Source: Verrucomicrobiota bacterium (GTDB lineage Bacteria > Verrucomicrobiota > Verrucomicrobiia > Verrucomicrobiales > DEV007). From it: a DNA stretch of 35,723 nucleotides. The stretch's first letter is position 1. The number at the start of each line of letters is the position of its first letter. Of this stretch, positions 18,589 to 35,124 are shown piece after piece. Location of the stretch: contig DAOUQC010000053.1 of assembly GCA_030625775.1 (NCBI GenBank), positions 1-35,723 on the forward strand, read 5' to 3'. A program made the translations under genes and the position numbers. The notes under the pieces were generated by a model, which did not search any database, was not told where the DNA came from, and saw only the letters and a list, made by a program, of their open reading frames with translations.

Positions 18589-19278
18589 TCAGCGGACTCG
18601 ATAACCCACACCCCGGACGGTTTCGATCAAGGTGGGCTTGGTCGGGTCGAGTTCGATGTGTTTGCGTAACTTTACGATGTGTTGGTCGAGGGTGCGTGAC
18701 TCGGGGTAATAGTCAATTCCCCAGCAATGGTTGAGTAAGGAGTCGCGGCGGACAGCTTCTCCACGGTGCTGATGAAGGAAAGATAGAATCGATATTTCCC
18801 GGGGGGACAACTCGACCTCGGCACTGTCGGAGTTGCGAGTGGCACGTAGTTGGGCTGGATAAACCGTGAGTTCTTCAGCGATGCAAAAACTGTTGGGTGT
18901 CTGGTCGTGGCTCGACCTTTCTGAGCGTCGTAGAGCTGAGCGGATGCGGGCGAGCAGTTCGTGTTTGCCAAAAGGTTTGCGAATGAAATCATCGGCGCCG
19001 AGTTCGAGTCCGACAACGACATCGATCTCTTCGTTCTTGGCAGAAAGAAAGAGGATGGGGAGCATTTTGTCACTAGCGCGAATGTGTCGGCAGACTTCGT
19101 AACCGTCGGCTTCGGGCATCATGATATCGAGGCAGACGAGATCAGGATTTTCCTGCTCCCAGATTTGCATGGCCTGCTTGCCGGTCTTGGCGAGTAAGGT
19201 GGAAAAGCCCTCGCTGCTCAGGCAGGCGTCGATGGATTCCAGGGTAACGGGATCGTCTTCGGCGATGAGGATTTTCAT
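18589..19278 (-). CDS. OmpR/PhoB-family response regulator
   Basis: A DNA-binding response regulator of 229 residues. The receiver domain (1-115) has the acidic pair Asp8-Asp9, the phosphorylation site Asp51 in CLDIMMPEADG, Ser79 in LFLSA and Lys101 in RKPF. A winged-helix output domain (about 130-229) ends VRGVGYRVR, the standard OmpR-type C-terminus, with the recognition-helix region SRTLDQHIVKLRKHIE. The ATG at 19278 gives the canonical MKILIAEDD opening. A longer frame upstream overlaps the kinase gene and is rejected. It is the last gene of a four-gene leftward unit, 25 bp after the kinase gene, and is the evident partner of that kinase. Its targets are unknown. Confidence 0.93.
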   Translation of the reverse strand: MKILIAEDDPVTLESIDACLSSEGFSTLLAKTGKQAMQIWEQENPDLVCLDIMMPEADGYEVCRHIRASDKMLPILFLSAKNEEIDVVVGLELGADDFIRKPFGKHELLARIRSALRRSERSSHDQTPNSFCIAEELTVYPAQLRATRNSDSAEVELSPREISILSFLHQHRGEAVRRDSLLNHCWGIDYYPESRTLDQHIVKLRKHIELDPTKPTLIETVRGVGYRVR

Positions 19279-19303
19279 TTGTTGTGGCCTAGTGGAATTT
19301 GGA

Positions 19304-20914
19304 TCACGATGCCATGGTAACAACGTTTTTTACAGACAGGGGAAGAGTCAGAATGAAACGGCAACCTTCATGACTTGTTTGATCACAGGGTTCCATCACC
19401 AGTTTTCCGTTCATGCTTTCTGCCAGGTCGCGGGCGATGGCGAGTCCAAGACCGGTTCCAGAAACTCCCTCAGTGGTTGCATCGCTGAGGCGGACGAAGG
19501 GTTTGAAAATTCGAGCAGCTTCTGATGCTGGAACACCCGGGCCAAAGTCGGTGATGGAGAGGGAGACCGTTTTGTTGCTTGAGATTGCCTTGATCGAGAT
19601 TTCAAATTTACCGCCGTCGGCAGCATATTTTTCTACGTTGGATATGAGGTTGCCGATGATCTGGCTGAGGGCATCGGGATCGACGAGAGCAAAAACCGGG
19701 GAATCAGGCAGGGATTGTCGAGCAGTGAGATTTTTGCGCGAAAGGGTGGGAGCGAACTGGAATAATACAGAGTCAATAATCTGTTTAACATCACAGGGGA
19801 TAAGTCGTAGTATTTGCCGGGATTTTTCAGAGAATGGGTGGGTTTTTTCACGGGTGGAAAAGGTGAGTACATTTTCAAGCAAACGGCTGAGGCGATTGGC
19901 TTCTTCACTTATCAGCTCGAGACGTTTTATTTGAGGGCGATTTTCATTCGTAAGCGAATCGGAAAGAAGGTCGATATTGAGGAGAATATTGGTCATCGGG
20001 GTACGAAGTTCATGGGAGATTTGATTCACGAAGGAGACCCGTTGTTCGGCGAGATGAAGAGCACGTTGCTGCTGGGTGTAGCCAAAAATACCGGCAATTA
20101 CCAGTACCACAGCTAATGTCGCGGAGCCTATCAGAACTGGTTGATTGTAGGCAATGGTCATTTCTTTTTTTCCCCAGGAAGAAATTTTCCAATCGCCGAA
20201 GGTGGAGGGTAAGGGGATAAGAAGATCAGGATCGCTTCCAGTAATGGGGACTTCCGTTGAGATGATGACCTTTCCAGAGGGGTTTTGCAGTGTTGCGGGA
20301 ATTCCTGCTGCCTCAATCGGAGCAAAAGCGTCAGTCAACCAGTCGGCTAGGGCGGCATCCATTTCGGCAGATGTTATCTCTGGATTGATTCGCAATACCA
20401 TGACGGTTTTGTAATCGAGTCTGGCAGCAAAATGGGGGGGGTGTCCGGGTTGTCTGATCCATTGGAAGTCGACGCCGGATTTTGCTCTTTTAATTTCTGC
20501 TATATCGACAATGATGCCCCCGCTTACAGAGGGGTCCCCGCTTTGCCGGGGCAGAGAAATTGGGCTTGAACGGTCCGTTTCCCGCAAGTCGAGATAATTG
20601 GGGTTTTGAGCTTCTCTGAAAATGCTCACCTGCTCGACGCCGACAATATTACGACAGATTGCGGAGATTTTTATGTTACTGGATCCAGAATGAATCTGAT
20701 CCCGAATATCGAGCAAGTGTTTTTGGTAGAGTGAATCGAGGCTTCCGAGTTCCTCAAGAAGCCGGGTGGAAAAATTTGATAGCGGTTTACGATCCTGCTT
20801 CAGAGTGGTGGTTTTTTCCTCGCGGGCAAAACGAAAGCCAATGATCAGCACAGTGACCGCTGAAATCAGGATCAGGCTTAGAATTGCGAGGGGGATGTGT
20901 TTGGCTGATGGCAT
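19304..20914 (-). CDS. Sensor histidine kinase with large periplasmic domain
   Basis: The 536-residue protein starts at ATG 20914. The in-frame TTG three codons upstream is less likely. Membrane helix 1 is about 8-28 and helix 2 about 258-279, framing a periplasmic sensor of roughly 225 residues that matches no domain recognised here. The HisKA domain has NQISHELRTPMTNILL with phosphoacceptor His301. The ATPase domain shows the N box (NLISNVEKYA), ITDFGPGVP and the G2 box GTGLGLAIARDLA. All catalytic boxes are present. It lies 25 bp after the secretin-core gene A and 25 bp before the response regulator, so the signal it reads probably concerns the two secreted proteins of the same unit. That functional link is inferred from gene order. 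Confidence 0.92.
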   Translation of the reverse strand: MPSAKHIPLAILSLILISAVTVLIIGFRFAREEKTTTLKQDRKPLSNFSTRLLEELGSLDSLYQKHLLDIRDQIHSGSSNIKISAICRNIVGVEQVSIFREAQNPNYLDLRETDRSSPISLPRQSGDPSVSGGIIVDIAEIKRAKSGVDFQWIRQPGHPPHFAARLDYKTVMVLRINPEITSAEMDAALADWLTDAFAPIEAAGIPATLQNPSGKVIISTEVPITGSDPDLLIPLPSTFGDWKISSWGKKEMTIAYNQPVLIGSATLAVVLVIAGIFGYTQQQRALHLAEQRVSFVNQISHELRTPMTNILLNIDLLSDSLTNENRPQIKRLELISEEANRLSRLLENVLTFSTREKTHPFSEKSRQILRLIPCDVKQIIDSVLFQFAPTLSRKNLTARQSLPDSPVFALVDPDALSQIIGNLISNVEKYAADGGKFEISIKAISSNKTVSLSITDFGPGVPASEAARIFKPFVRLSDATTEGVSGTGLGLAIARDLAESMNGKLVMEPCDQTSHEGCRFILTLPLSVKNVVTMAS

Positions 20915-20939
20915 GCGATCCAAAAGCGTATCAGGAGTG

Positions 20940-21770
20940 TTAATGATAGGGAATCAAATCTGCTCGTACTAGAACGAGGATTTTTTTATCCTTGTTACGC
21001 GGAGGGGTGTGGATGCCGAGTAGATTGTATTTTCCGGGAGCCACTTCAATCTGGGTGATGTCCTTCATAGTGTAAAAAGCAGGCATCAAGACGTTTTCAA
21101 CACCCCAGGCGCTATTCTCAAAACCTTTGCGGGTGAAATAATGATCCTCCAGCCGGGTAACGATAGTAGGTGAGAGACTAAGAGTGATGAGCTTGTGATC
21201 GGAGGACAAAATGGGGTCGACTTCAAGTATGCTGCCGATTTTTTTCAGGTCAAAAGTATTCGGTATGGCATGAGTCATGTGGATTTCAGATTCTCCCGGA
21301 CCCTTTTTTTTGTGACTGGGTTCCGAGCTGCTTTCTGCTCCAACATAAGGGAGAACCGGGGATTCGTAATTTGTAGGGTAATAATCCTCACGCACGGATT
21401 CCGTAAGGGCTCTTTGGCCACTTCTTCCTCGAATCCACATGGTCTCCACCAGTTCGGCATCCCCTTTGTCGATCGCTTGTTCCAATGCGTCACGCAATTC
21501 AGCAACATCACTTGCTTTTGATGTGAATTCTCCAAGCAATGTGTTGGCCTTTTTGGAATCCAGGGAGATGTATTCGATCAAAATGCCGATGGAGGGTTTG
21601 ATGCCTGCAAAACCGACGTTTCCTTTGCCGTCCTTAGTGAAAAAGACTTTCTTTTTGACTTCAGTATTCTTTTTTTCTGCAATAGGGGCCCCGGCTTTTT
21701 CTTGTGCCGGCAGGGTTGCGGGAGAGAGGGTTAGGAAGAGGGCGCTTATTAGGGGAAATGTAAATTTCAT
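20940..21770 (-). CDS. Secreted secretin-core-like protein, paralogue A
   Basis: The 276-residue protein has a signal peptide (about 1-22, ending ATLPA-Q). The rest resembles the C-terminal core of secretins of the type II pathway, without the N0/N1 ring domains or any pilotin-binding tail. Recognisable pieces, in order, are IGILIEYISLD (61-71), the RSGQR-x-TESVREDYYPTNY stretch (116-135, like the SGQxA...REFxYPTEY of verrucomicrobial secretins), IGSILEVDPILSSD (178-191) and the closing strands KYNLLGIHTP and KKILVLVRADLI. About 46 of 80 residues in the first core segment match the neighbouring paralogue by hand count. A secretin-derived periplasmic or outer-membrane protein is the best description. 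Pore formation is doubtful because the protein is so short. It is the second gene of the four-gene unit. Confidence 0.65.
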   Translation of the reverse strand: MKFTFPLISALFLTLSPATLPAQEKAGAPIAEKKNTEVKKKVFFTKDGKGNVGFAGIKPSIGILIEYISLDSKKANTLLGEFTSKASDVAELRDALEQAIDKGDAELVETMWIRGRSGQRALTESVREDYYPTNYESPVLPYVGAESSSEPSHKKKGPGESEIHMTHAIPNTFDLKKIGSILEVDPILSSDHKLITLSLSPTIVTRLEDHYFTRKGFENSAWGVENVLMPAFYTMKDITQIEVAPGKYNLLGIHTPPRNKDKKILVLVRADLIPYH

Positions 21771-21797
21771 TGGATTTTTTTTGAAGTTGAAGGGAAT

Positions 21798-22676
21798 TTA
21801 TTTTGCAAGAAACAGATCTGTTTTTAGCAGGACGATGATGCGTTTACCGGGTTCTTTATAGGGGGTGTGAAAGCCTAGTAAGTTGTAGTTGCCAGGGATT
21901 GTTGTGATTTGGAGGGTGGTCTTATTTATGTAGAAGCTGGCCATTGAGATATTGTCGATTCCGTGAGCCGTGTGCTCGAAGCCCGGGCGGGTGAAGTGGC
22001 GATCCTCCAGCCGGGTGACAATTTCAGGGGCAAGGGAGATATCGATCATGTTGCTGTCCGAGGAGATGACAGGATCAACTTCCAGTGTCAGTCCGACGTG
22101 GCGCGTTTCGAATGCGGTGGGAGTGGCAGAAGTGATATGGATTTGGGAACTCGTGCGTTCCTTAATATCCGTATTCTGCGAGGCTTTCGCTGTCTGCTGT
22201 TTTGTGCCGGTCTGAGAGGATTGCAGCGCTTCGTCCTGGGGTTCAATTGGGGCATTACCACCAATGATTTCCGGGGGGGTATATTCGGTGGGGTAAATGT
22301 CTTCCCTTACCGATTCTGTTTTAACGCGTTGTCCGCTCAGGCCTCGGAGCCATCCTGTTTCGATCAATTCAGCTTGTCCTTTTTTTATCATTTCACCCAG
22401 TGTGTCACGCAGTTCTCCGGCATCTGCTGCTTTGGGGGAATATTGGCTGATTAACTTGTTGGCCTTTCGGTGATCCAGTTTGAAATACTCAAGCAGGATG
22501 GCGACCTGGGGGCTGCTCTTTTTTTCGACAACTTTGGAGTCGGTATTGCTTTGTTTTTTTGTATCGTTATTCTCCTTTTTATTTTGTGCTGACAGGGGTG
22601 CCATGAGGGCGATGAGAATGCAGAGTGCCAGGGCTGGGCAGAGAAGCGTGTGTTTGATGGGGCTTTTTTTATTCAT
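21798..22676 (-). CDS. Secreted secretin-core-like protein, paralogue B
   Basis: The tandem paralogue of the preceding protein, 292 residues from ATG 22676. A TTG six codons upstream is possible but unneeded. The signal peptide ends LMAPLSA-Q (30/31) and is followed by a lysine-, asparagine- and serine-rich linker. The core has VAILLEYFKLD (58-68), LSGQR-x-KTESVREDIYPTEY (113-132), then a longer glutamine/threonine-rich insert (about 140-178) than in A. The strongly secretin-like TPTAFETRHVGLTLEVDP (185-202) comes next, and the final strands are NYNLLGFHTP and RIIVLLKTDLF. As in A, the N-terminal ring domains are missing. It heads the four-gene unit (27 bp before paralogue A). Its upstream region contains a family 2 repeat. 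Paralogues in tandem point to duplication followed by divergence of the insert. Confidence 0.65.
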   Translation of the reverse strand: MNKKSPIKHTLLCPALALCILIALMAPLSAQNKKENNDTKKQSNTDSKVVEKKSSPQVAILLEYFKLDHRKANKLISQYSPKAADAGELRDTLGEMIKKGQAELIETGWLRGLSGQRVKTESVREDIYPTEYTPPEIIGGNAPIEPQDEALQSSQTGTKQQTAKASQNTDIKERTSSQIHITSATPTAFETRHVGLTLEVDPVISSDSNMIDISLAPEIVTRLEDRHFTRPGFEHTAHGIDNISMASFYINKTTLQITTIPGNYNLLGFHTPYKEPGKRIIVLLKTDLFLAK

Positions 22677-22755
22677 GAATCGTATTTTATCCAAGTTGTT
22701 GTTTTGAGGGTCAAATTACTGTGAAAGGTTTGTAAAAGTTCTGTAAAAAGGAAAA

Positions 22756-22868
22756 GGGTGCTTGGGGCTTGGAGACGTTCGGGGAAACGGATTGGTAATC
22801 AATTTACGGGGTGGTTTTTGGGGGAGATGTAAAACGCAATGCCATTGCGTGGGTGCTTGGGCGTTGCC
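22756..22868 (+). repeat. Family 2 palindromic repeat, copy 2 (rearranged)
   Basis: The same sequence blocks as the other copies but in swapped order. The right-hand block comes first (GTTCGGGGAAACGGATTGG, then AATCAATTTACGGGGTGG). The left-hand block (GTAAAACGCAATGCCATTGC, then GTGGGTGCTTGG) comes second. This is what two partial tandem units would give. The perfect palindrome CGCAATG-C-CATTGCG is intact. It lies between the divergent secretin-like and isochorismatase genes and ends about 30 bp before the latter's start. Confidence 0.65.
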
Positions 22869-22899
22869 GAGGCTTGTAGGGGTGTGGTAGCTTGTGGGC

Positions 22900-23790
22900 A
22901 TGAAATTTCACTTTACCTTGTCGCGAGCGATGCTCTGCGCTTTGATTTTGATTGTGAGCCCCTTTGTCCATGCTGAAAACGACAAGCTTGTTTTGAAGCT
23001 GCGTTCGAGGTTGGCGGATGGAGGCGCGGTAAAGCTGGATCAGGTTGAATGGGATCCGGGAAAGACTGCGCTGATTATCTGCGATATGTGGGATGATCAT
23101 TGGTGCAAGTCTGCTTCACGGAGGGTTACTGAAATGGCTCCGGTGCTGAATGAAACGATCAAGGCGGCGCGTGAGAAAGGGGTCTTTATTATCCATGCAC
23201 CCAGCTCGGTGACTGATTTTTACAAGGGCACACCGCAGCGTAAACTTGCACAACAAGCGATTTTTGTGAAAACTCCGAAACCACTATCAACTAAGGATCG
23301 CTGGGGGACGAAGTGGTGCTGGCCGGATCCGGAGTTCGAGGGGGTGCTGCCGATTGATGATTCGGATATGGGTTGCAGTTGCAAGGAGCCGAAATGTGAA
23401 ATCAAACCACCGTGGACTAGGCAAAACAAGTTGATCGATATGGTAGAGGGGGATGCGATCACTGATAATGGACAGGAAACCTGGAATCTGCTTGAAGAGC
23501 GGGGAATCAAAAATGTTATTCTAGCCGGCGTGCATTTGAATATGTGTGTGCTGGGTAGGCCTTTTGGGATTCGTCAGATGGTCAAGCAAGGTAAGAGCGT
23601 GGCGTTGATGCGTGACATGACGGATACGATGTACAACCCGGGTCGTCCGCCGGGGGTTGATCATTTTAGCGGAACGGATCTGGTCATCGAGCATGTGGAG
23701 AAATTCTGGTGCCCGTCTTTTACCAGCAATGATATTACCGGGGACAAGGCTTTTCGTTTTACCAGGGACAAGCGGGGTGGAGGGGGATGA
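22900..23790 (+). CDS. Exported isochorismatase-family cysteine hydrolase
   Basis: A 296-residue protein with a signal peptide (about 1-25, FVHA-END). The isochorismatase-like alpha/beta fold shows TALIICDMWDDHWC with the catalytic Asp62 and GVHLNMCVLGRPFGIRQM with the nucleophile Cys216. A lysine or arginine of the triad lies near 174-177 (RQNK). Between the two halves is an insert carrying Cys140, Cys159, Cys161 and Cys166 (MGCSCKEPKCE), which could form disulfides or bind metal in the periplasm. Members of this fold hydrolyse amides or vinyl ethers, and the substrate here is unknown. The start is ATG 22900, and a GTG two codons upstream is an alternative. The C-terminus, RGGGG, is encoded by the G-rich tract at the edge of a family 2 repeat. 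Confidence 0.85.
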   Translation: MKFHFTLSRAMLCALILIVSPFVHAENDKLVLKLRSRLADGGAVKLDQVEWDPGKTALIICDMWDDHWCKSASRRVTEMAPVLNETIKAAREKGVFIIHAPSSVTDFYKGTPQRKLAQQAIFVKTPKPLSTKDRWGTKWCWPDPEFEGVLPIDDSDMGCSCKEPKCEIKPPWTRQNKLIDMVEGDAITDNGQETWNLLEERGIKNVILAGVHLNMCVLGRPFGIRQMVKQGKSVALMRDMTDTMYNPGRPPGVDHFSGTDLVIEHVEKFWCPSFTSNDITGDKAFRFTRDKRGGGG

Positions 23791-23888
23791 ATTGTGAATT
23801 GTGAATGAGGGGGAGGATGTAAAACGCAATGCCATTGCGTGGGTGTTGGGGATGTTCGGGGGAAACGGATTGGCAATCCATTTTACGG
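23788..23888 (+). repeat. Family 2 palindromic repeat, copy 3
   Basis: The best-preserved copy. It has TGAATTGTGAATTGTGAATG, a G-run, GTAAAACGCAATGCCATTGC, GTGGGTGTTGGGGATGTTCG, then GGATTGGCAATCCATTTTAC. Two short palindromes (CGCAATG-C-CATTGCG and GGATTG-G-CAATCC) are flanked by inverted GTAAAA / TTTTAC ends. By hand, 16 of 21 bases match between the left arm and the reverse complement of the right arm. The first three bases are the stop codon of the isochorismatase-family gene. It lies between that gene and the convergent sulfatase gene and could act as a bidirectional terminator. Confidence 0.75.
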
Positions 23889-28929: not shown

Positions 28930-28985
28930 TAATATGAGGAAGGTAGCTGCTTTGTAAGCAGTTATGATTGTTATTGGAGTGCCTT

Positions 28986-29591
28986 ATGTGGCTGAATATG
29001 GAAAATCATCTGGATAGCGAAAGCGAAGGAGAGGTCGCTGAAGACGAATTGATCCGTGAAGTGCAGAACGGGAATCTGGCGGCTTTCGAGCAACTGATTC
29101 ACCTGCATTCATCGAGGTTGCGGGCTTTTGTGTCCATGCGTCTGCCGGTGTCCCATTTGATTGACGAGATCGCCCACGAGGCTTTTGTTTTTGCCTATCG
29201 CCATCTGGATGACTTCACCTTGGGCAGCAATTTCGGAGCCTGGCTGCGGGCGATCGCAAACAATCTGGTTCGAGCCGAAGTATTGCGTTACAGTCGCTCG
29301 GTCAAAAACCAGGCCAATTATCTTGAGCATTGTCTGGTGGAATCTGACACTGGGGAAGGGCTTGCGCCCGAATCACCGATAGTGCTTTATCTCGAGGAAT
29401 GTCTGGGAGATTTGCCGGACGGGCAGAGGGAGTTATTGCAGCGGCGTTATCGGCTCACGGAATCCACACGGGACATGGCGGAGGCGATGGGGCAGAGCGA
29501 GGCGTGGGTGCGCACGACTTTGTGCCGGGTAAGGCGGGCATTGCGAACTTGTGTGGAGGGTAAGCAGGAATTGAAGGTGGTGGCTAATTAA
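28986..29591 (+). CDS. ECF-subfamily RNA polymerase sigma factor
   Basis: A 201-residue sigma-70-like factor with only regions 2 and 4. Region 2 (about 30-105) includes AFEQLIHLHSSRLRAF, DEIAHEAFVFAYRHLDDF and FGAWLRAIANNLVR. Region 4 (about 140-190) includes LPDGQRELLQRRY and the helix-turn-helix segment TRDMAEAMGQSEAWVRTTLC, followed by RVRRALRTCV. The start is ATG 28986, which has GGAG six bases upstream. The TTG six codons earlier and the ATG at 28998 are alternatives. It directs RNA polymerase to a small set of promoters. It is 16 bp upstream of the FecR/LamG protein gene, the standard PVC arrangement in which the neighbour acts as a membrane regulator. Confidence 0.93.
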   Translation: MWLNMENHLDSESEGEVAEDELIREVQNGNLAAFEQLIHLHSSRLRAFVSMRLPVSHLIDEIAHEAFVFAYRHLDDFTLGSNFGAWLRAIANNLVRAEVLRYSRSVKNQANYLEHCLVESDTGEGLAPESPIVLYLEECLGDLPDGQRELLQRRYRLTESTRDMAEAMGQSEAWVRTTLCRVRRALRTCVEGKQELKVVAN

Positions 29592-29607
29592 TAGTGGGTA
29601 TTTAAGA

Positions 29608-31329
29608 ATGGAAAGCGACAGAACAGAACGATTGGATGCATACCTCGCCAGAGAATTGCAACAGAGTTCTGTGTCTCTGGTCGAGGCTGAGATCCGGGGG
29701 GATGAAGCGTTTAGCAAAGAGTTTGTGCTTCAGTCGCAGATGGATGCTGCTTTGACAGTGCTGCTGGCAGATGAAAAAAATACGCAGGATTTTGCCCAAG
29801 GGGTGATGGCCAGTGTGCAGACGGAGCCGGAGCGGGTCTTGGCAAAATCAATTTTATCAGAAATTCTTGATGAGCGTGAAGCGGCCAGTCAGCGGCATCA
29901 ACCCAGGGCTTTTGATTGGTGGGTGTGGACTAAGACGGCAGCCATTGCAGCGGTTGCGGCAGTTGCTGCGGTATGGGGCTTGCAGTCGGTGCAGTTGGAT
30001 TCCGGGAATGGTCAGGTGGCACCGCAGCCGAAATTCCTTGCTCGTTTAACGGTCGATGAGAATGCGCAATGGGATGAAAGCAGTTTGAAAGTCCGGGAAG
30101 ACGGGTGGCTGGGTTCGGGGCGCCTGAATTTGCAGAGCGGTCTGGCGGAGGTGACTTTTGGTTCGGGGGCACGGGTATTGCTGGAAGGTCCAGTGGTGTT
30201 CGATATCGAGCAGATGAACCGTGGGTTTTTGAAGCGGGGGCGGGCAACGGCTGAAGTGCCGGGACCGGCCAGCGGATTTGTGATCAATACCCCGCTGATG
30301 AATGTGGTGGATCTGGGAACTCGCTTCGGCCTGAAGGTGAAGAACAATGGTGAGTCGGAAGTTCATGTGATGCAGGGGGTGGTGGAAGTGAGCCGGAGCC
30401 GGGGACGTTCAGTGCCTTTGGTGCTGACGGAGGGGTTGGCGGTGCTTGCTGACAGGCGTCCGCAAAGTCGCTTGAAGCCACTTGTTTATGCTGGTCACGA
30501 GTTTGTCTTACCCGAGCAGGAGGCGAGCATTCTGGCGACGACCCGTTTTTTGCATTACGGCTTTGATGAATCCGGGGGTGCCGATATTGACGATACGGGA
30601 GTGGGAATGGCCGGGGGACCGTTTGATGTTTCGTTGTTGCCGGTGGAGGAGGGGGTAGCCCATGCTTCGCCAAAAAGGACCGCTGGAGTGGTGGGGCGAG
30701 GATTGGTGTTTGAGATGGGCTCCCGGATGGAGGCAAATGCTCCGTCGCGGTTGGCGGGCGGGACTCAAGCCTGGTCAATGATGTTGTGGATGAAAGTGCT
30801 GTCAAAAGCGGGGGGCAATGGGGAGCAGGAAATAGTGACTTGGGGATCGGGGGATCAGCCTTGGAAAATGGGTTGGAATGGCGATGCTGAAGCTGGCACC
30901 GAGGGAGCTTTGCGAGCTGACTATGGAAAAGGCTACGCAGTTGGCTCTACGGATTTGCGTGATGGGCGATGGCACCATTTGGCTTTGATTTTCATAGGAG
31001 CGGAAGAGAATGAGGAGCTGGCTTTGCACGGGGGAAATGAGCCGGAAGAAGCAGATTTGGTCGACGTGGCCACTCATACCCGGCTTTATGTGGATGGCAA
31101 ACTTGAATCCTTGAGTGGCGGACATTCCGAATTTGTGAATTCATTGTCAGCCGACTCAGAAAGCGAGCTTGCTTCATTTTCCTTGGGAGGAGGAGGGGGC
31201 TTTGCAGGCTGGTTGGATGAGTTTTATCTGTTTGAGGCGGCGGCTTCATCGGCAAGCGTATTAGAATTATATGAAATGGGTATACCCCGTGACAGCAAAG
31301 CCTTTAAAAATGGGGTGAATGAAAAATGA
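29608..31329 (+). CDS. FecR-domain transmembrane protein with C-terminal LamG domain
   Basis: A 573-residue type II membrane protein. Residues 1-100 are a cytoplasmic, acidic, helical region (DRTERLDAYLARELQQSSVS) that probably contacts the sigma factor. A membrane helix follows at about 107-126 (alanine/valine-rich). The FecR domain (about 145-265) contains GSGARVLLEGPVVFDI and the signature INTPLMNVVDLGTRFGLKV. Its HVMQGVVEVSR segment leads into a linker, then a LamG/concanavalin-like fold (about 310-565) with AWSMMLWMKV, DGRWHHLALIF and RLYVDGKLESL. The LamG part suggests binding of an extracellular glycan and signal transfer to the sigma factor. Proteins with this plan follow ECF sigma genes across Planctomycetes and Verrucomicrobiota. 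Control of the sigma factor is inferred from context. Confidence 0.9.
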   Translation: MESDRTERLDAYLARELQQSSVSLVEAEIRGDEAFSKEFVLQSQMDAALTVLLADEKNTQDFAQGVMASVQTEPERVLAKSILSEILDEREAASQRHQPRAFDWWVWTKTAAIAAVAAVAAVWGLQSVQLDSGNGQVAPQPKFLARLTVDENAQWDESSLKVREDGWLGSGRLNLQSGLAEVTFGSGARVLLEGPVVFDIEQMNRGFLKRGRATAEVPGPASGFVINTPLMNVVDLGTRFGLKVKNNGESEVHVMQGVVEVSRSRGRSVPLVLTEGLAVLADRRPQSRLKPLVYAGHEFVLPEQEASILATTRFLHYGFDESGGADIDDTGVGMAGGPFDVSLLPVEEGVAHASPKRTAGVVGRGLVFEMGSRMEANAPSRLAGGTQAWSMMLWMKVLSKAGGNGEQEIVTWGSGDQPWKMGWNGDAEAGTEGALRADYGKGYAVGSTDLRDGRWHHLALIFIGAEENEELALHGGNEPEEADLVDVATHTRLYVDGKLESLSGGHSEFVNSLSADSESELASFSLGGGGGFAGWLDEFYLFEAAASSASVLELYEMGIPRDSKAFKNGVNEK

Positions 31330-31338
31330 ACAAAAATC

Positions 31339-31367
31339 TGTAACAGAACCGGACGATGGTGTTATTC
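31339..31367 (+). promoter_or_regulatory. Candidate ECF-type promoter of the DUF1549/DUF1553 gene
   Basis: TGTAAC (31339-31344), 17 bp, then TTATTC (31362-31367), the same layout as the motif before the sigma gene. It starts 10 bp after the FecR gene's stop. A transcript from here would have a leader of about 145 bases before the ATG at 31520. A nearby TTGTTACTG (31370-31378) is partly inverted with CTGTAACAG and could be an operator or hairpin. Confidence 0.5.
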
Positions 31368-31519
31368 CCTTGTTACTGGGCACCTGCAGAATCAGTTGGT
31401 TCGCTCATCCCCCCTACATTCCCTCTCAGCCCTTAAGAATTTCTATTCACCCCCTCATGCTGGCTGCTTAGATTGCAGTAAAAATAATTTTCCCCGAAAA
31501 CAATTAGAGAAAGATAAGA

Positions 31520-33748
31520 ATGAATCGGAACAACATTACCAAACAAATAGGTGCCGCCTTGGTAGGCATGGTATTGATCACATCGTCGATTTCAGCGAAT
31601 GCCAGAGTGTGGAAAGACCAAAAAGGGCACGAAGTTGAGGCTGAATACGTGGGGTATGAAAAAACCGCACAGGGTTTGATGGTCAAATTGAAATCGGCAA
31701 AGGGGGATATCAAACTTCCTTTTTTGCAATTGAGTGCGGAAGACCAGGCCTATGTGAAAGAGCAAGCTGCGTCTCAAGCACCGGTACTTTCGGGGAGTCC
31801 CTCGCAAAAAATTGATCAGATGATCATGACAAAATTGAAAGCAGCTAATGCCGAAATCCGGGCTCGAGGTGCGGCTCTGTCAAAAGAGGAGGGCTTGAGC
31901 AAGCTTGAAAGACAAAAAAAAGCAGAGGAGCTGGTTTACGAGGAGAAGATGACCCTGCCAAACAAACGGATGTCGGATCAGCAGTTTGTGCGTCGCGTGT
32001 ATTTGGATATTGCTGGTCGTATTCCCACCTACAACGAGGCGGTGGATTTTCTTGAGTCAGGCGGTAAGGACAAACGTGCCAAGCTGATTGATGAACTGCT
32101 CGACTCGGAAGCGTACGTCATGAACATGTTCAATTGGTATAGTGACTTGCTGCGTATCCGCGACGGAGTGGTCATGGGTGGCGGAGGTCAGTTGAAGGCG
32201 ATCGGCTATGTGGATTGGGTGAAGGACAGTATCCGTGAGAACAAACCTTTCGACAAGATAGTGCAGGAAATGCTGACTGCGACAGGCACCTTGTGGGACA
32301 ATCCGGCGACGGGTTATCTTGTCACTGACAATGGCATGCCTTTGTGTAATTTGTCGAATACCTTCACGGTATTTCTGGGAACGGAAATCACCTGCGCCCA
32401 GTGTCACGACCACCCCTTTGAAGAGGTCTACCAGATGGACTTTTACAAAATGGCTTCATTTTTTGGTGAGACGAATACACGCGGCGGCGGAAGCATGATG
32501 GCGATGGGGAAGAAGAACCGTTCGCGCTCTGAGCGTGACCGCTTGAACAAGTTGCTGTTGGACGGAGGGAAATTACGGAAGAATGCAAAGACGGACAACC
32601 AACTGAATCAAATTCTTGGCACCTACGGCTACAATGTGAGTGATGGGGGGGGGAACAAGGTTAAACTTCCGCATGACTACAAGTATGATGACGCAGATCC
32701 CAACGCAGCTGTGGCTCCAGCGACTTATTTTGGTGAGAAAGTGGATGTGAGTAAACATGGGAGCCCTCGTCAGGCATTTGCTGTGTGGATGACTTCAAAA
32801 GAAAATCCTCGCTTCACCGTGAATCTGGTGAACAGGCTTTGGAAGCGTGCTTTTGGTTTGGCGCAGATTGAGCCGGTGGATAACATCCCGGGTGACCTTG
32901 GTGGTCAGGCACAGAATTACGAGTTGCTGAAGTTTCTGGAGGATACGATGCACGAGCTGGATTATGATGTGAGAGGCTTCATGCGGGTTCTATATAATAC
33001 TGACGCTTACCAACGTGAGGCGTGTCATGTGTCTCCGACGCTGACTCAGATTGATCGCGGGGAATACCATTTTGCCGAACCCGTTTTGCGTCGGATGACT
33101 GCCGAGCAGCTGTGGGATTCACTGGTGACCTTGACAACTTCAAACCCAGAATCGATGCAACGTCGGGGCTTGGAAGATTATCAAGCCGTGATGAACACCG
33201 ATCTGGCAACCCTTAAAACCGCGGATGAAGTGATGAATTTCAAGAAGCAGTTTGCTTCGGTCGGATCGATCAAGGGAATGAGCGGAGAGATGGGGAGTAA
33301 AGAGGCTATGGCTGCTTCGAGAGTGGGAGGAGAGCAGATGGTGAGAGCTTCTGAACTTGCCTTGCCGCAGCGACCCGGGACTTTCCTCAGGATGTTCGGT
33401 CAGTCGAATAAGCAGTTGATCGAAAACAACACCACCCTGGGCTCAACCCCGCAGGTGATGGCCTTGCTGAACGGAAAAATCACCAATCAGGTTCTGACTG
33501 ATGCCAAAGCTCATCTGGTTAATGAAGTGGTGAACAACACCCGCGGCAGAGGGGGGAAAACAGAGAAGATTTTCATGAGTATTCTGGGGCGTTTCCCCAC
33601 GACGGCCGAAAAAAGTGCAGCCTCCAGTGGCATGCGTGTTTCCAAAGACAAGGGCAAGCCGATGAACAAGGAAGCGATGGAAGTGGCCAAGATGGGGAAT
33701 GTGATATGGGCTTTATTGAATACCCGTGAATTTCTATTTATCCAATAA
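31520..33748 (+). CDS. SHD1-DUF1549-DUF1553 exported protein (PSD1/cytochrome-like family)
   Basis: A 742-residue protein with a signal peptide (about 1-28, ISANA-RV). An SLA1-homology-like domain follows, WKDQKGHEVEAEYVGYE through KLPFLQLSAEDQ (30-75). A charged helical linker leads to DUF1549, starting at DQQFVRRVYLDIAGRIPTYN and ending near the cytochrome-like heme motif CAQCHDHPFE (Cys292, Cys295, His296). DUF1553 fills the second half (about 410-720), with PRQAFAVWMTSKENPRFTVN and NRLWKRAFG. This pairing is the PSCyt2-PSD1 architecture of Planctomycetes and Verrucomicrobiota. It is periplasmic. The enzymatic role is unproven, though glycan or redox roles are often suggested. It is preceded by its own ECF-like promoter and followed by the DUF1501 gene after 65 bp. 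Confidence 0.92.
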   Translation: MNRNNITKQIGAALVGMVLITSSISANARVWKDQKGHEVEAEYVGYEKTAQGLMVKLKSAKGDIKLPFLQLSAEDQAYVKEQAASQAPVLSGSPSQKIDQMIMTKLKAANAEIRARGAALSKEEGLSKLERQKKAEELVYEEKMTLPNKRMSDQQFVRRVYLDIAGRIPTYNEAVDFLESGGKDKRAKLIDELLDSEAYVMNMFNWYSDLLRIRDGVVMGGGGQLKAIGYVDWVKDSIRENKPFDKIVQEMLTATGTLWDNPATGYLVTDNGMPLCNLSNTFTVFLGTEITCAQCHDHPFEEVYQMDFYKMASFFGETNTRGGGSMMAMGKKNRSRSERDRLNKLLLDGGKLRKNAKTDNQLNQILGTYGYNVSDGGGNKVKLPHDYKYDDADPNAAVAPATYFGEKVDVSKHGSPRQAFAVWMTSKENPRFTVNLVNRLWKRAFGLAQIEPVDNIPGDLGGQAQNYELLKFLEDTMHELDYDVRGFMRVLYNTDAYQREACHVSPTLTQIDRGEYHFAEPVLRRMTAEQLWDSLVTLTTSNPESMQRRGLEDYQAVMNTDLATLKTADEVMNFKKQFASVGSIKGMSGEMGSKEAMAASRVGGEQMVRASELALPQRPGTFLRMFGQSNKQLIENNTTLGSTPQVMALLNGKITNQVLTDAKAHLVNEVVNNTRGRGGKTEKIFMSILGRFPTTAEKSAASSGMRVSKDKGKPMNKEAMEVAKMGNVIWALLNTREFLFIQ

Positions 33749-33813
33749 GGGAGAGGGCATCAGGAAAGTGTCTGTAGCTGATTTAATATAAAAGTAAGAA
33801 AGGAAAGCAAATA

Positions 33814-35124
33814 ATGAAAGAAGGTCTGAATAGTTTGGACGGCCAGAGTCGCCGTAAGTTCATGATGAGCGCTGCAAAAAGCGCGTTAGGGGTGAGCATG
33901 GTTCCCATGTTGGGAAGTAATAATGTTTTTGGGGCGGCCAGTGGAGGTAAAGCGGAGCATTGTATCTTTCTTTACATGAGCGGGGGAATGACCCATCTCG
34001 ACACCTTTGATCCGAAACCTGGAGCAGAAACCCAGGGGAAAACAGGTACAGCCAAAACGCCGGTCGCCGGGATTGAGATTTCAGAATTTTTGCCCAAGCT
34101 GGCAAAAGGTTTTAAGGATATTGCGCTGGTGCGCTCGATGCAGCTTTTGACAGCTGATCATCGCGGGGCAAGCTATCAAGTTCATACGGCCTATTCCCGC
34201 AAAGCGACGATTATTCATCCTACGACGGGACCGTGGGCGCAGCGACTGCTGGGCAAAAAACATGATACTCTGCCGGACAGTGTGGTGATTGGTGGCGGCG
34301 GCAATCATTCAGGGTCCGGGTTTATGGGGCCGCTGTTGAGCCCATTGCCTATTGGTGATCCGGAAAAGGGGATTCAGAACGTGAAAGCCACGGTGGATGA
34401 GCGGGCCTTCGGCAAGCGGATGAAGATGATCGACACCTTCGATGCGGGATTCCAGAGCAAGTTTAAGACCGAGGAAGTAAAAGCCTATTCGGATTTTTAT
34501 GATGAAACTCTAAAGTTGATGAAGAGTGAAGATCTTGAAGTATTTGATTTGAGCAAAGAGAAGCAGGAAAAACGTGCGGCTTACGGTATGAACCGTCTCG
34601 GTCAGGGATGTTTACTGGCAAAACGCCTGGTGGCCAATGGCGTGAGACATGTCGAAGTGACCTATGGTGGCTGGGACATGCACAATGATTTGTGGAATGT
34701 GATCCCCGAACGTGCGGGTACCGTGGACAATGCGGTGTCTGCTTTGATTGAGGATTTGAAAGCCGAGGGGCTGTTTGACAAGACTCTGATTGTGTTGGCT
34801 TCCGAGTTTGGTAGAACACCACGGATCAATGCCAATGGCGGACGGGATCACCATTCGGCGGTGTTTACCACGATGTGGGCTGGCGGCGGTATTGTCGGAG
34901 GGCAGGTTTATGGATCTTCCGATGAAAATGGGGTCGCGCCGAAGGAAAATCTGGTAGGTGCCAAAGAGCATAACGCCACGATTGCCCATGCGATGGGCAT
35001 GCCTTTGGACAAAGTTATTTACGCACCGTCCGGACGCCCGTTCATGGTGGCAGGTCACAAGCTGGATCAGAAAACCAAGGAAATGGTGCCCGAGGCAGAA
35101 CCCATTATGCAACTATTCTCCTAA
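33814..35124 (+). CDS. DUF1501 protein, Tat-exported
   Basis: A 436-residue member of the DUF1501 (sulfatase/alkaline-phosphatase-fold) family. The Tat signal is QSRRKFMMSAAKSALG (11-26). The core begins CIFLYMSGGMTHLDTFDPKP, where the metal-binding Asp lies. Later stretches are RHVEVTYGGWDMHND, SEFGRTPRINANGGRDHHSA and MWAGGGIVGGQVYGSSDENG, all intact. The ribosome-binding site AGGAAAG lies 6-7 bases before ATG 33814. Proteins of this family almost always follow a DUF1549/DUF1553 gene and are thought to act with it in the periplasm on an unknown polymer-derived substrate. It is probably cotranscribed with the preceding gene, with the terminator after it ending the unit. Confidence 0.93.
   Translation: MKEGLNSLDGQSRRKFMMSAAKSALGVSMVPMLGSNNVFGAASGGKAEHCIFLYMSGGMTHLDTFDPKPGAETQGKTGTAKTPVAGIEISEFLPKLAKGFKDIALVRSMQLLTADHRGASYQVHTAYSRKATIIHPTTGPWAQRLLGKKHDTLPDSVVIGGGGNHSGSGFMGPLLSPLPIGDPEKGIQNVKATVDERAFGKRMKMIDTFDAGFQSKFKTEEVKAYSDFYDETLKLMKSEDLEVFDLSKEKQEKRAAYGMNRLGQGCLLAKRLVANGVRHVEVTYGGWDMHNDLWNVIPERAGTVDNAVSALIEDLKAEGLFDKTLIVLASEFGRTPRINANGGRDHHSAVFTTMWAGGGIVGGQVYGSSDENGVAPKENLVGAKEHNATIAHAMGMPLDKVIYAPSGRPFMVAGHKLDQKTKEMVPEAEPIMQLFS

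Follow-up and report, generated by a model that had tools for sequence, protein, structure and literature searches.

Short secretin-like proteins adjoin a sensor kinase and its regulator in a conserved operon of Verrucomicrobia with a candidate autoregulatory promoter

Secretins are familiar as gated pores of the outer membrane. In the window analysed here, a stretch of 35,723 nucleotides from a Verrucomicrobiota bacterium of the lineage DEV007 (contig DAOUQC010000053.1, assembly GCA_030625775.1), two secreted paralogues related to secretins, A and B, are encoded directly ahead of a sensor histidine kinase (HK) and an OmpR/PhoB-type response regulator (RR) (Table 1). We give A, B and their relatives the descriptive label "short secretin cores" (SSC). 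The order of SSC, kinase and regulator genes is conserved far beyond chance, and we lean towards the view that the operon is an autoregulated three-component envelope-signalling system, in which the regulator would turn on its own operon and the SSC would act on the sensor as a partner. Many Verrucomicrobia have seemingly put the secretin barrel domain to a second use, as a partner or output dedicated to a two-component system. If this is true, a little-understood phylum offers a defined signalling circuit whose DNA box is clear, whose main target is single and whose partners can be tested, and the system could serve as a model for the periplasmic monitoring of envelope machines.

All four genes lie on the minus strand, with gaps of 27, 25 and 25 bp by open reading frame. 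Coordinates and Pfam domains agree with an initial annotation, made from the letters of the window, which had described four leftward genes for two secreted paralogues, a histidine kinase and an OmpR-type regulator. That annotation had also taken the genes to be a unit, unless their order should prove to be conserved in no relative; the order was instead found in several families. Within the window's own family, one or two SSC domains precede each kinase found by similarity wherever upstream DNA is visible, the domains being encoded by a pair of twin genes, by one single-domain gene or by one two-domain gene. Among the 387 genomes of the order, 72 give a match to a profile of the kinase's sensor region. 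In nearly all of 20 loci fetched from two other families an SSC gene precedes the kinase and a regulator gene follows, the exceptions being L169, in which the SSC model is silent, and L183, which is interrupted by an assembly gap.

An independent control set consisted of kinases retrieved from named genomes by kinase-core peptides alone, the SSC being left out of the search; a sensor match required E<=1e-15 and only loci with visible flanks were counted. This set overlaps the earlier searches, some of its loci coming from the same genomes. Kinases with this sensor had an SSC upstream and a regulator downstream in 48 of 48 cases, and those without a strong sensor match had an SSC in none of 20; many of these 20 carry a VWA protein in that position. 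The gap between SSC and kinase has a median of 18 bp, and the two genes overlap in 16 of 49 cases. Records with the operon include Luteolibacter, Haloferula, Prosthecobacter, Verrucomicrobium, Rubritalea and Chthoniobacter flavus, and sensor identities among the conserved loci fall to ~15-20%. The order is kept in several families and in one genome outside the taxonomic order (L310), which has the SSC, kinase, regulator and a four-repeat promoter box and apparently represents the same contig as a record (L213) labelled as a Kiritimatiellaeota metagenome-assembled genome (MAG). The operon is absent from the sampled genomes (2.2-3.3 Mb) of one genus of a neighbouring family (g19), and searches for related loci with P0002 alone or with a wide SSC alignment returned none. 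Two loci that seemed to lack an SSC (L201 and L216) reflected an artefact of overlapping open frames, and both have one. Genome G056 seems to contain a second operon (contig C37), but this variant, 91% identical and located where the contig begins, most probably reflects a difference between strains and is no additional system.

An alignment of A with B spans 286 positions at 43% identity, and each protein begins with a Sec-type signal peptide that, as read from the sequence, has no lipobox cysteine. Among curated families, both match best to the C-terminal part of Amuc_1098, a type IV pilus secretin (NCBIfam NF042912; 1.3e-22 for A, 5e-17 for B), a profile of 805 positions of which they match ~591-690 alone. 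Against the Pfam Secretin family A is sub-threshold (0.0059) and B has no match; one SSC from a related genome exceeds the cut-off (2e-7, 31.2 bits). The genome's own full-length secretin shares 33% identity with B across 162 aligned positions. An AlphaFold model of B (pLDDT 86.6, from an alignment of 50 rows) resembles 28 solved secretins with Z of 9-14, the next best match having Z 5.4, and the best Foldseek hit of the same model is also a secretin (E 2e-7). When the PDB was searched by sequence alone, neither the SSC profile nor the sensor profile found a convincing match.

The periplasmic ring domains N0-N3 are absent from A and B: past the signal peptide and a linker ~200 residues remain, and by length and alignment all of these belong to the C-domain match. 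The VPxLGxxPxxGxLF lip signature is likewise absent from the alignments of A, B and other SSCs; the full-length secretin of the same genome (L003) keeps it near its C terminus as VPVVGDLPLVGRLF. On our reading of the sequences, the stretch between the first strand and the following helix, where full-length secretins carry their gate strands, is far shorter in the SSC. In the model of B the C-domain fold of secretins, with its long strands, is preserved. Judged by these profile matches and the model, A and B are secretin-derived, ring-less proteins of the C-domain fold.

The kinase has HisKA and HATPase_c domains and the regulator Response_reg and Trans_reg_C domains, all four over the Pfam cut-offs, and the kinase (P0003) carries a SHELRTP motif with the conserved histidine. 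Its gene starts with ATG, a short extension from a TTG being possible. In a model of residues 1-291 (pLDDT 93), a first transmembrane (TM) helix leads into a long helix and two alpha/beta modules, after which another TM helix follows. The closest solved structures are KinD, CqsR, TlpA, LuxQ and similar PDC/dCache sensors, with Z of 7-9.4 over ~165-180 residues and no Pfam Cache match. On this model the periplasmic domain resembles a double-Cache (tandem PDC) sensor; we call it no more than double-Cache-like because these Z scores are middling. The initial annotation's view of A and B as secretin relatives lacking ring domains is thus borne out, both profiles and structures matching secretins where unrelatedness had been the alternative, while its description of the periplasmic domain as of no recognised type gives way to a likeness to KinD and LuxQ. 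The pair was also considered as a PhoR-PhoB phosphate system, and this was rejected: the regulator scores 182.6 bits against an NCBIfam cut-off of 296.2 for PhoB, and the kinase 116.7 against 334.2 for PhoR.

Upstream of gene A lies an array of four repeats in 11-bp phase, TTTTACA GAAC TTTTACA AACC TTTCACA GTAA TTTGACC, of which the fourth overlaps the likely -35 element (TTGACC, 22709-22714). Before the first SSC gene of related operons the consensus is TTTTACA-N4-TTTTACA; a third repeat and a TTTGAC that fits a -35 element often come next, with the phase kept. The pattern TTT[TGC]AC-N5-TTT[TGC]AC occurs in 30 of 39 upstream regions and about zero times in shuffled ones, with a spacer of 5 in all 30 (one further match has a spacer of 4) and usually 53-76 bp ahead of the ATG. 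By a slightly looser pattern the box precedes 38 of the 48 kinase loci of the control set, and four of the ten misses have no upstream sequence. A generic promoter and terminator scan gave counts no higher than in shuffled sequence and is hence uninformative. The box is kept at two loci where the operon looks broken, one with a truncated SSC (L153 4628-5035, in G032) and one in which a transposase-like gene of REP type follows the box directly (L145 4424-5586, in G011).

In the window's own 4.88-Mb genome the exact TTTTACA-N4-TTTTACA occurs once, at this operon, together with an overlapping one-mismatch match at 22720-22737. Sites with two mismatches are no more frequent than with the reversed pattern (47 versus 55), and neither these nor one-mismatch matches on contigs C127 and C150, which are likewise not above that control, were kept as extra targets. 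A phosphate regulon was also considered and dismissed: the box resembles the 11-bp repeats of Pho/WalR type, yet the PhoR and PhoB scores fall far under their cut-offs and the PhoU genes lie elsewhere. Across 74 genomes of the family, many box sites lie at further operons of this kind, and two others precede a secreted protein of ~135 aa without a Pfam family match. Searching with this protein turned up another copy, with a box overlooked by the first pattern, and a homologue heading the operon of G021. The box thus precedes four of four close relatives, three of them separate genes and one the first gene of an SSC operon (G021), and the small protein is apparently an additional regulon member in some genomes. 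That a search by protein independently turned up boxes argues that the box is a real regulatory element.

An SSC tree of moderate support suggests that a single SSC, related to those of L044-L046, gave rise to the twin genes in the window's clade, and it gives the fused two-domain form a deep split of its own; SSC domain pairs may thus have arisen more than once. In a related kinase group a secreted VWA protein often occupies the SSC position directly before the kinase, and a similar repeat lies upstream at two loci. These loci come from MAGs labelled Desulfobacterota/Deltaproteobacteria, Hydrogenedentota, Acidobacteria and others, and VWA protein, kinase and regulator look like a widespread three-gene unit. 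Since a VWA protein stands in the SSC position and similar repeats recur, the comparison suggests that this kinase lineage pairs with a dedicated secreted protein, of which the SSC would be the version of Verrucomicrobia.

Members of another SSC subfamily adjoin a gene of ~1050-1190 aa (L049 5489-6442, L050 7505-11677, L053, L054, L055, L058, L065, L070 and L071) and have no kinase of this type alongside. In L050 Pfam assigns the neighbour a VIT (vault/inter-alpha-trypsin) domain, and N termini inspected at other loci look alike; just upstream, L050 also has genes named by eye as MoxR-like, DUF58-like and BatA-like. Arrays of SSC genes and two-domain SSC proteins also occur without this kinase nearby (L073 2925-6122, L074 6082-7563, L067 6382-8283 and L064 2338-6378), which suggests a larger family with other roles.

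In the reading we lean towards, the SSCs, as gate- and ring-less derivatives of a pilus-secretin barrel, would be made in step with the double-Cache kinase and the PhoB-like regulator. The activated kinase would phosphorylate the regulator, which on the 11-bp-phased TTTTACA repeats upstream of and into the -35 element would turn on its own operon and, in some relatives, the small secreted protein also. The SSC would be the main output of the circuit, and most likely would also act upon the sensor domain within the periplasm, closing a feedback loop as its dedicated partner. It is probably the output because the regulon detected in the genome is the operon itself, and the role of physical feedback partner is the most likely addition because the SSC stays so close beside the kinase. 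We infer that binding activates, that the SSC touches the sensor, and that the state sensed is that of the outer membrane or of the pilus/secretin machinery. The initial annotation had likewise suggested that the two paralogues could be what is sensed, or partners of the kinase. A more specific picture, possible but less likely than not, is that the secretin barrel, once rid of rings and gate, came to serve as a soluble co-receptor in the periplasm, telling a dedicated kinase about the condition of the outer membrane or of the full-length secretin, in a self-contained circuit that chiefly targets its own operon. Several points weigh against the reading we lean towards. Binding of the box by the regulator is presumed from PhoB-type homology, the autoregulatory position and the conservation of the box, and contact between SSC and sensor is a putative step. 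About a quarter of the operons have no clear box by the strict pattern, in some because the contig ends. A candidate SSC-kinase fusion, a 945-aa open frame in Rubritalea profundi (L183), was discarded since it runs through a block of N that marks a scaffold gap. Lastly, strict linkage of SSC and kinase would be expected equally if the SSC were a mere regulated output.

That last alternative, in which the kinase senses a small periplasmic ligand itself, the regulator switches on the SSC genes and the SSC acts elsewhere in the envelope, its site of action being for instance the outer membrane, the peptidoglycan or the full-length secretin, strikes us as possible if somewhat doubtful. Double-Cache domains usually bind small ligands directly, the sole detected target in the genome makes the SSC a likely effector, and the SSC subfamilies found without the kinase, beside VIT-domain proteins, point to functions that do not need it. 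Ordinary outputs, however, tend to drift from their regulators, whereas the SSC adjoins the kinase at all 48 loci, often with overlapping start and stop codons; and related kinases often keep a different secreted protein, of VWA type, in its place, as though a secreted partner as such were needed. It is improbable, in our estimation, that the SSCs assemble in the outer membrane as a small secretin-like ring or pore without a gate, timed by the two-component system. The retained long strands and C-domain fold would allow it, and a mixed ring could be made from SSC domains in pairs or in tandem, but the ring-building N domains, the lip motif and the S domain are missing, fused two-domain forms fit a closed homomeric ring poorly, and an open channel would be costly to the cell. 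Practically no weight attaches to the arrangement being a chance neighbourhood or a functionless, lineage-specific relic, in favour of which we found no point: it is refuted by its retention in many genera at such low sensor identities and by the conserved promoter module.

Table 1. Features of the operon (positions in the window) and of related loci (by locus).
Feature	Position	Strand	Description
Predicted regulator-binding array	22709..22748	-	Operon upstream region; sequence, single exact genome match, position and 11-bp phase kept in orthologous operons
Gene A	21798..22676	-	Secreted SSC, 292 aa; ATG start; Sec signal peptide
Gene B	20940..21770	-	Secreted SSC, 276 aa; paralogue of A; AlphaFold pLDDT 86.6, secretin C-domain fold
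Sensor histidine kinase (HK)	19304..20914	-	536 aa; ATG start; TM helix, ~225-residue periplasmic double-Cache-like sensor, TM helix, HisKA, HATPase_c
HK N-terminal sensor region	20042..20914	-	Residues 1-291, both TM helices and periplasmic domain; search-profile region
OmpR/PhoB-type response regulator (RR)	18589..19278	-	229 aa
Small secreted protein family	L147 432-860; L149, L150 (behind boxes); L270		~135-143 aa; GxWxNxxEDTRxCPKFEI-like; 11-bp-repeat box before each copy
VWA-type loci, genes directly before kinase	L237, L239, L241, L251, L253-L255, L258, L263		~440-465 aa, secreted; VWA domain in all four scanned

Elsewhere in the window, CACGCAATGGCATTGCGTTTTAC occurs in two exact copies (minus strand, 22829-22851 and 23819-23841); it is a near-palindrome, its copies flank the gene at 22894-23790, and it looks like a dispersed repeat. 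The region 28968-35124 carries in a row, by eye, genes for a sigma factor and a FecR/LamG-like protein and two genes that resemble those of planctomycete-type DUF1549/DUF1553 and DUF1501 proteins.

We found no earlier description of a linked SSC-kinase system in open-access full text, in keeping with the initial annotation, which knew of none; that annotation had overlooked the 11-bp-repeat promoter module implying autoregulation, the fused two-domain form of many relatives and the VWA-linked kinase group. The nearest sequence relative of A and B, sharing the secretin C-domain fold, is Amuc_1098 (PilQ), the secretin of Akkermansia and its relatives and an abundant outer-membrane protein (PMC4960237). 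The SSC differs from it in having ~200 residues against ~800-900, no rings, no lip signature, a far shorter stretch before the helix, where secretins have their gate strands, and its linkage to a two-component system. A likeness of another kind is to LuxP and LuxQ, of which LuxP carries AI-2 and has an unrelated fold, and LuxQ is a hybrid kinase. LuxP is a secreted periplasmic protein that partners LuxQ, a kinase with a tandem PDC periplasmic domain (PMC8534201). The likeness lies in a secreted protein set beside a kinase whose sensor, here double-Cache-like by its model, counts LuxQ itself among its structural matches; here, in contrast, the candidate partner is secretin-derived and known from strict gene linkage, and the regulator is PhoB-like.

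In Pseudomonas aeruginosa FimS-AlgR reportedly activates the operon of PilY1 and the minor pilins, which feed back on it (PMC5979040), and there too envelope or pilus components seem to be activated by a two-component system and then to act upon it. The proteins and the kinase are others, with no secretin part, and for FimS-AlgR the abstract mentions no operon that the kinase would share with the feedback proteins. The VWA-kinase-regulator operons have a similar kinase core and regulator, and in many a secreted protein gene directly upstream; that protein is not a secretin derivative, and the sensor match is weak or none. The parts of the operon are thus of known kinds, and what seems new is their combination, with a gateless secretin derivative as the constant neighbour of a kinase.

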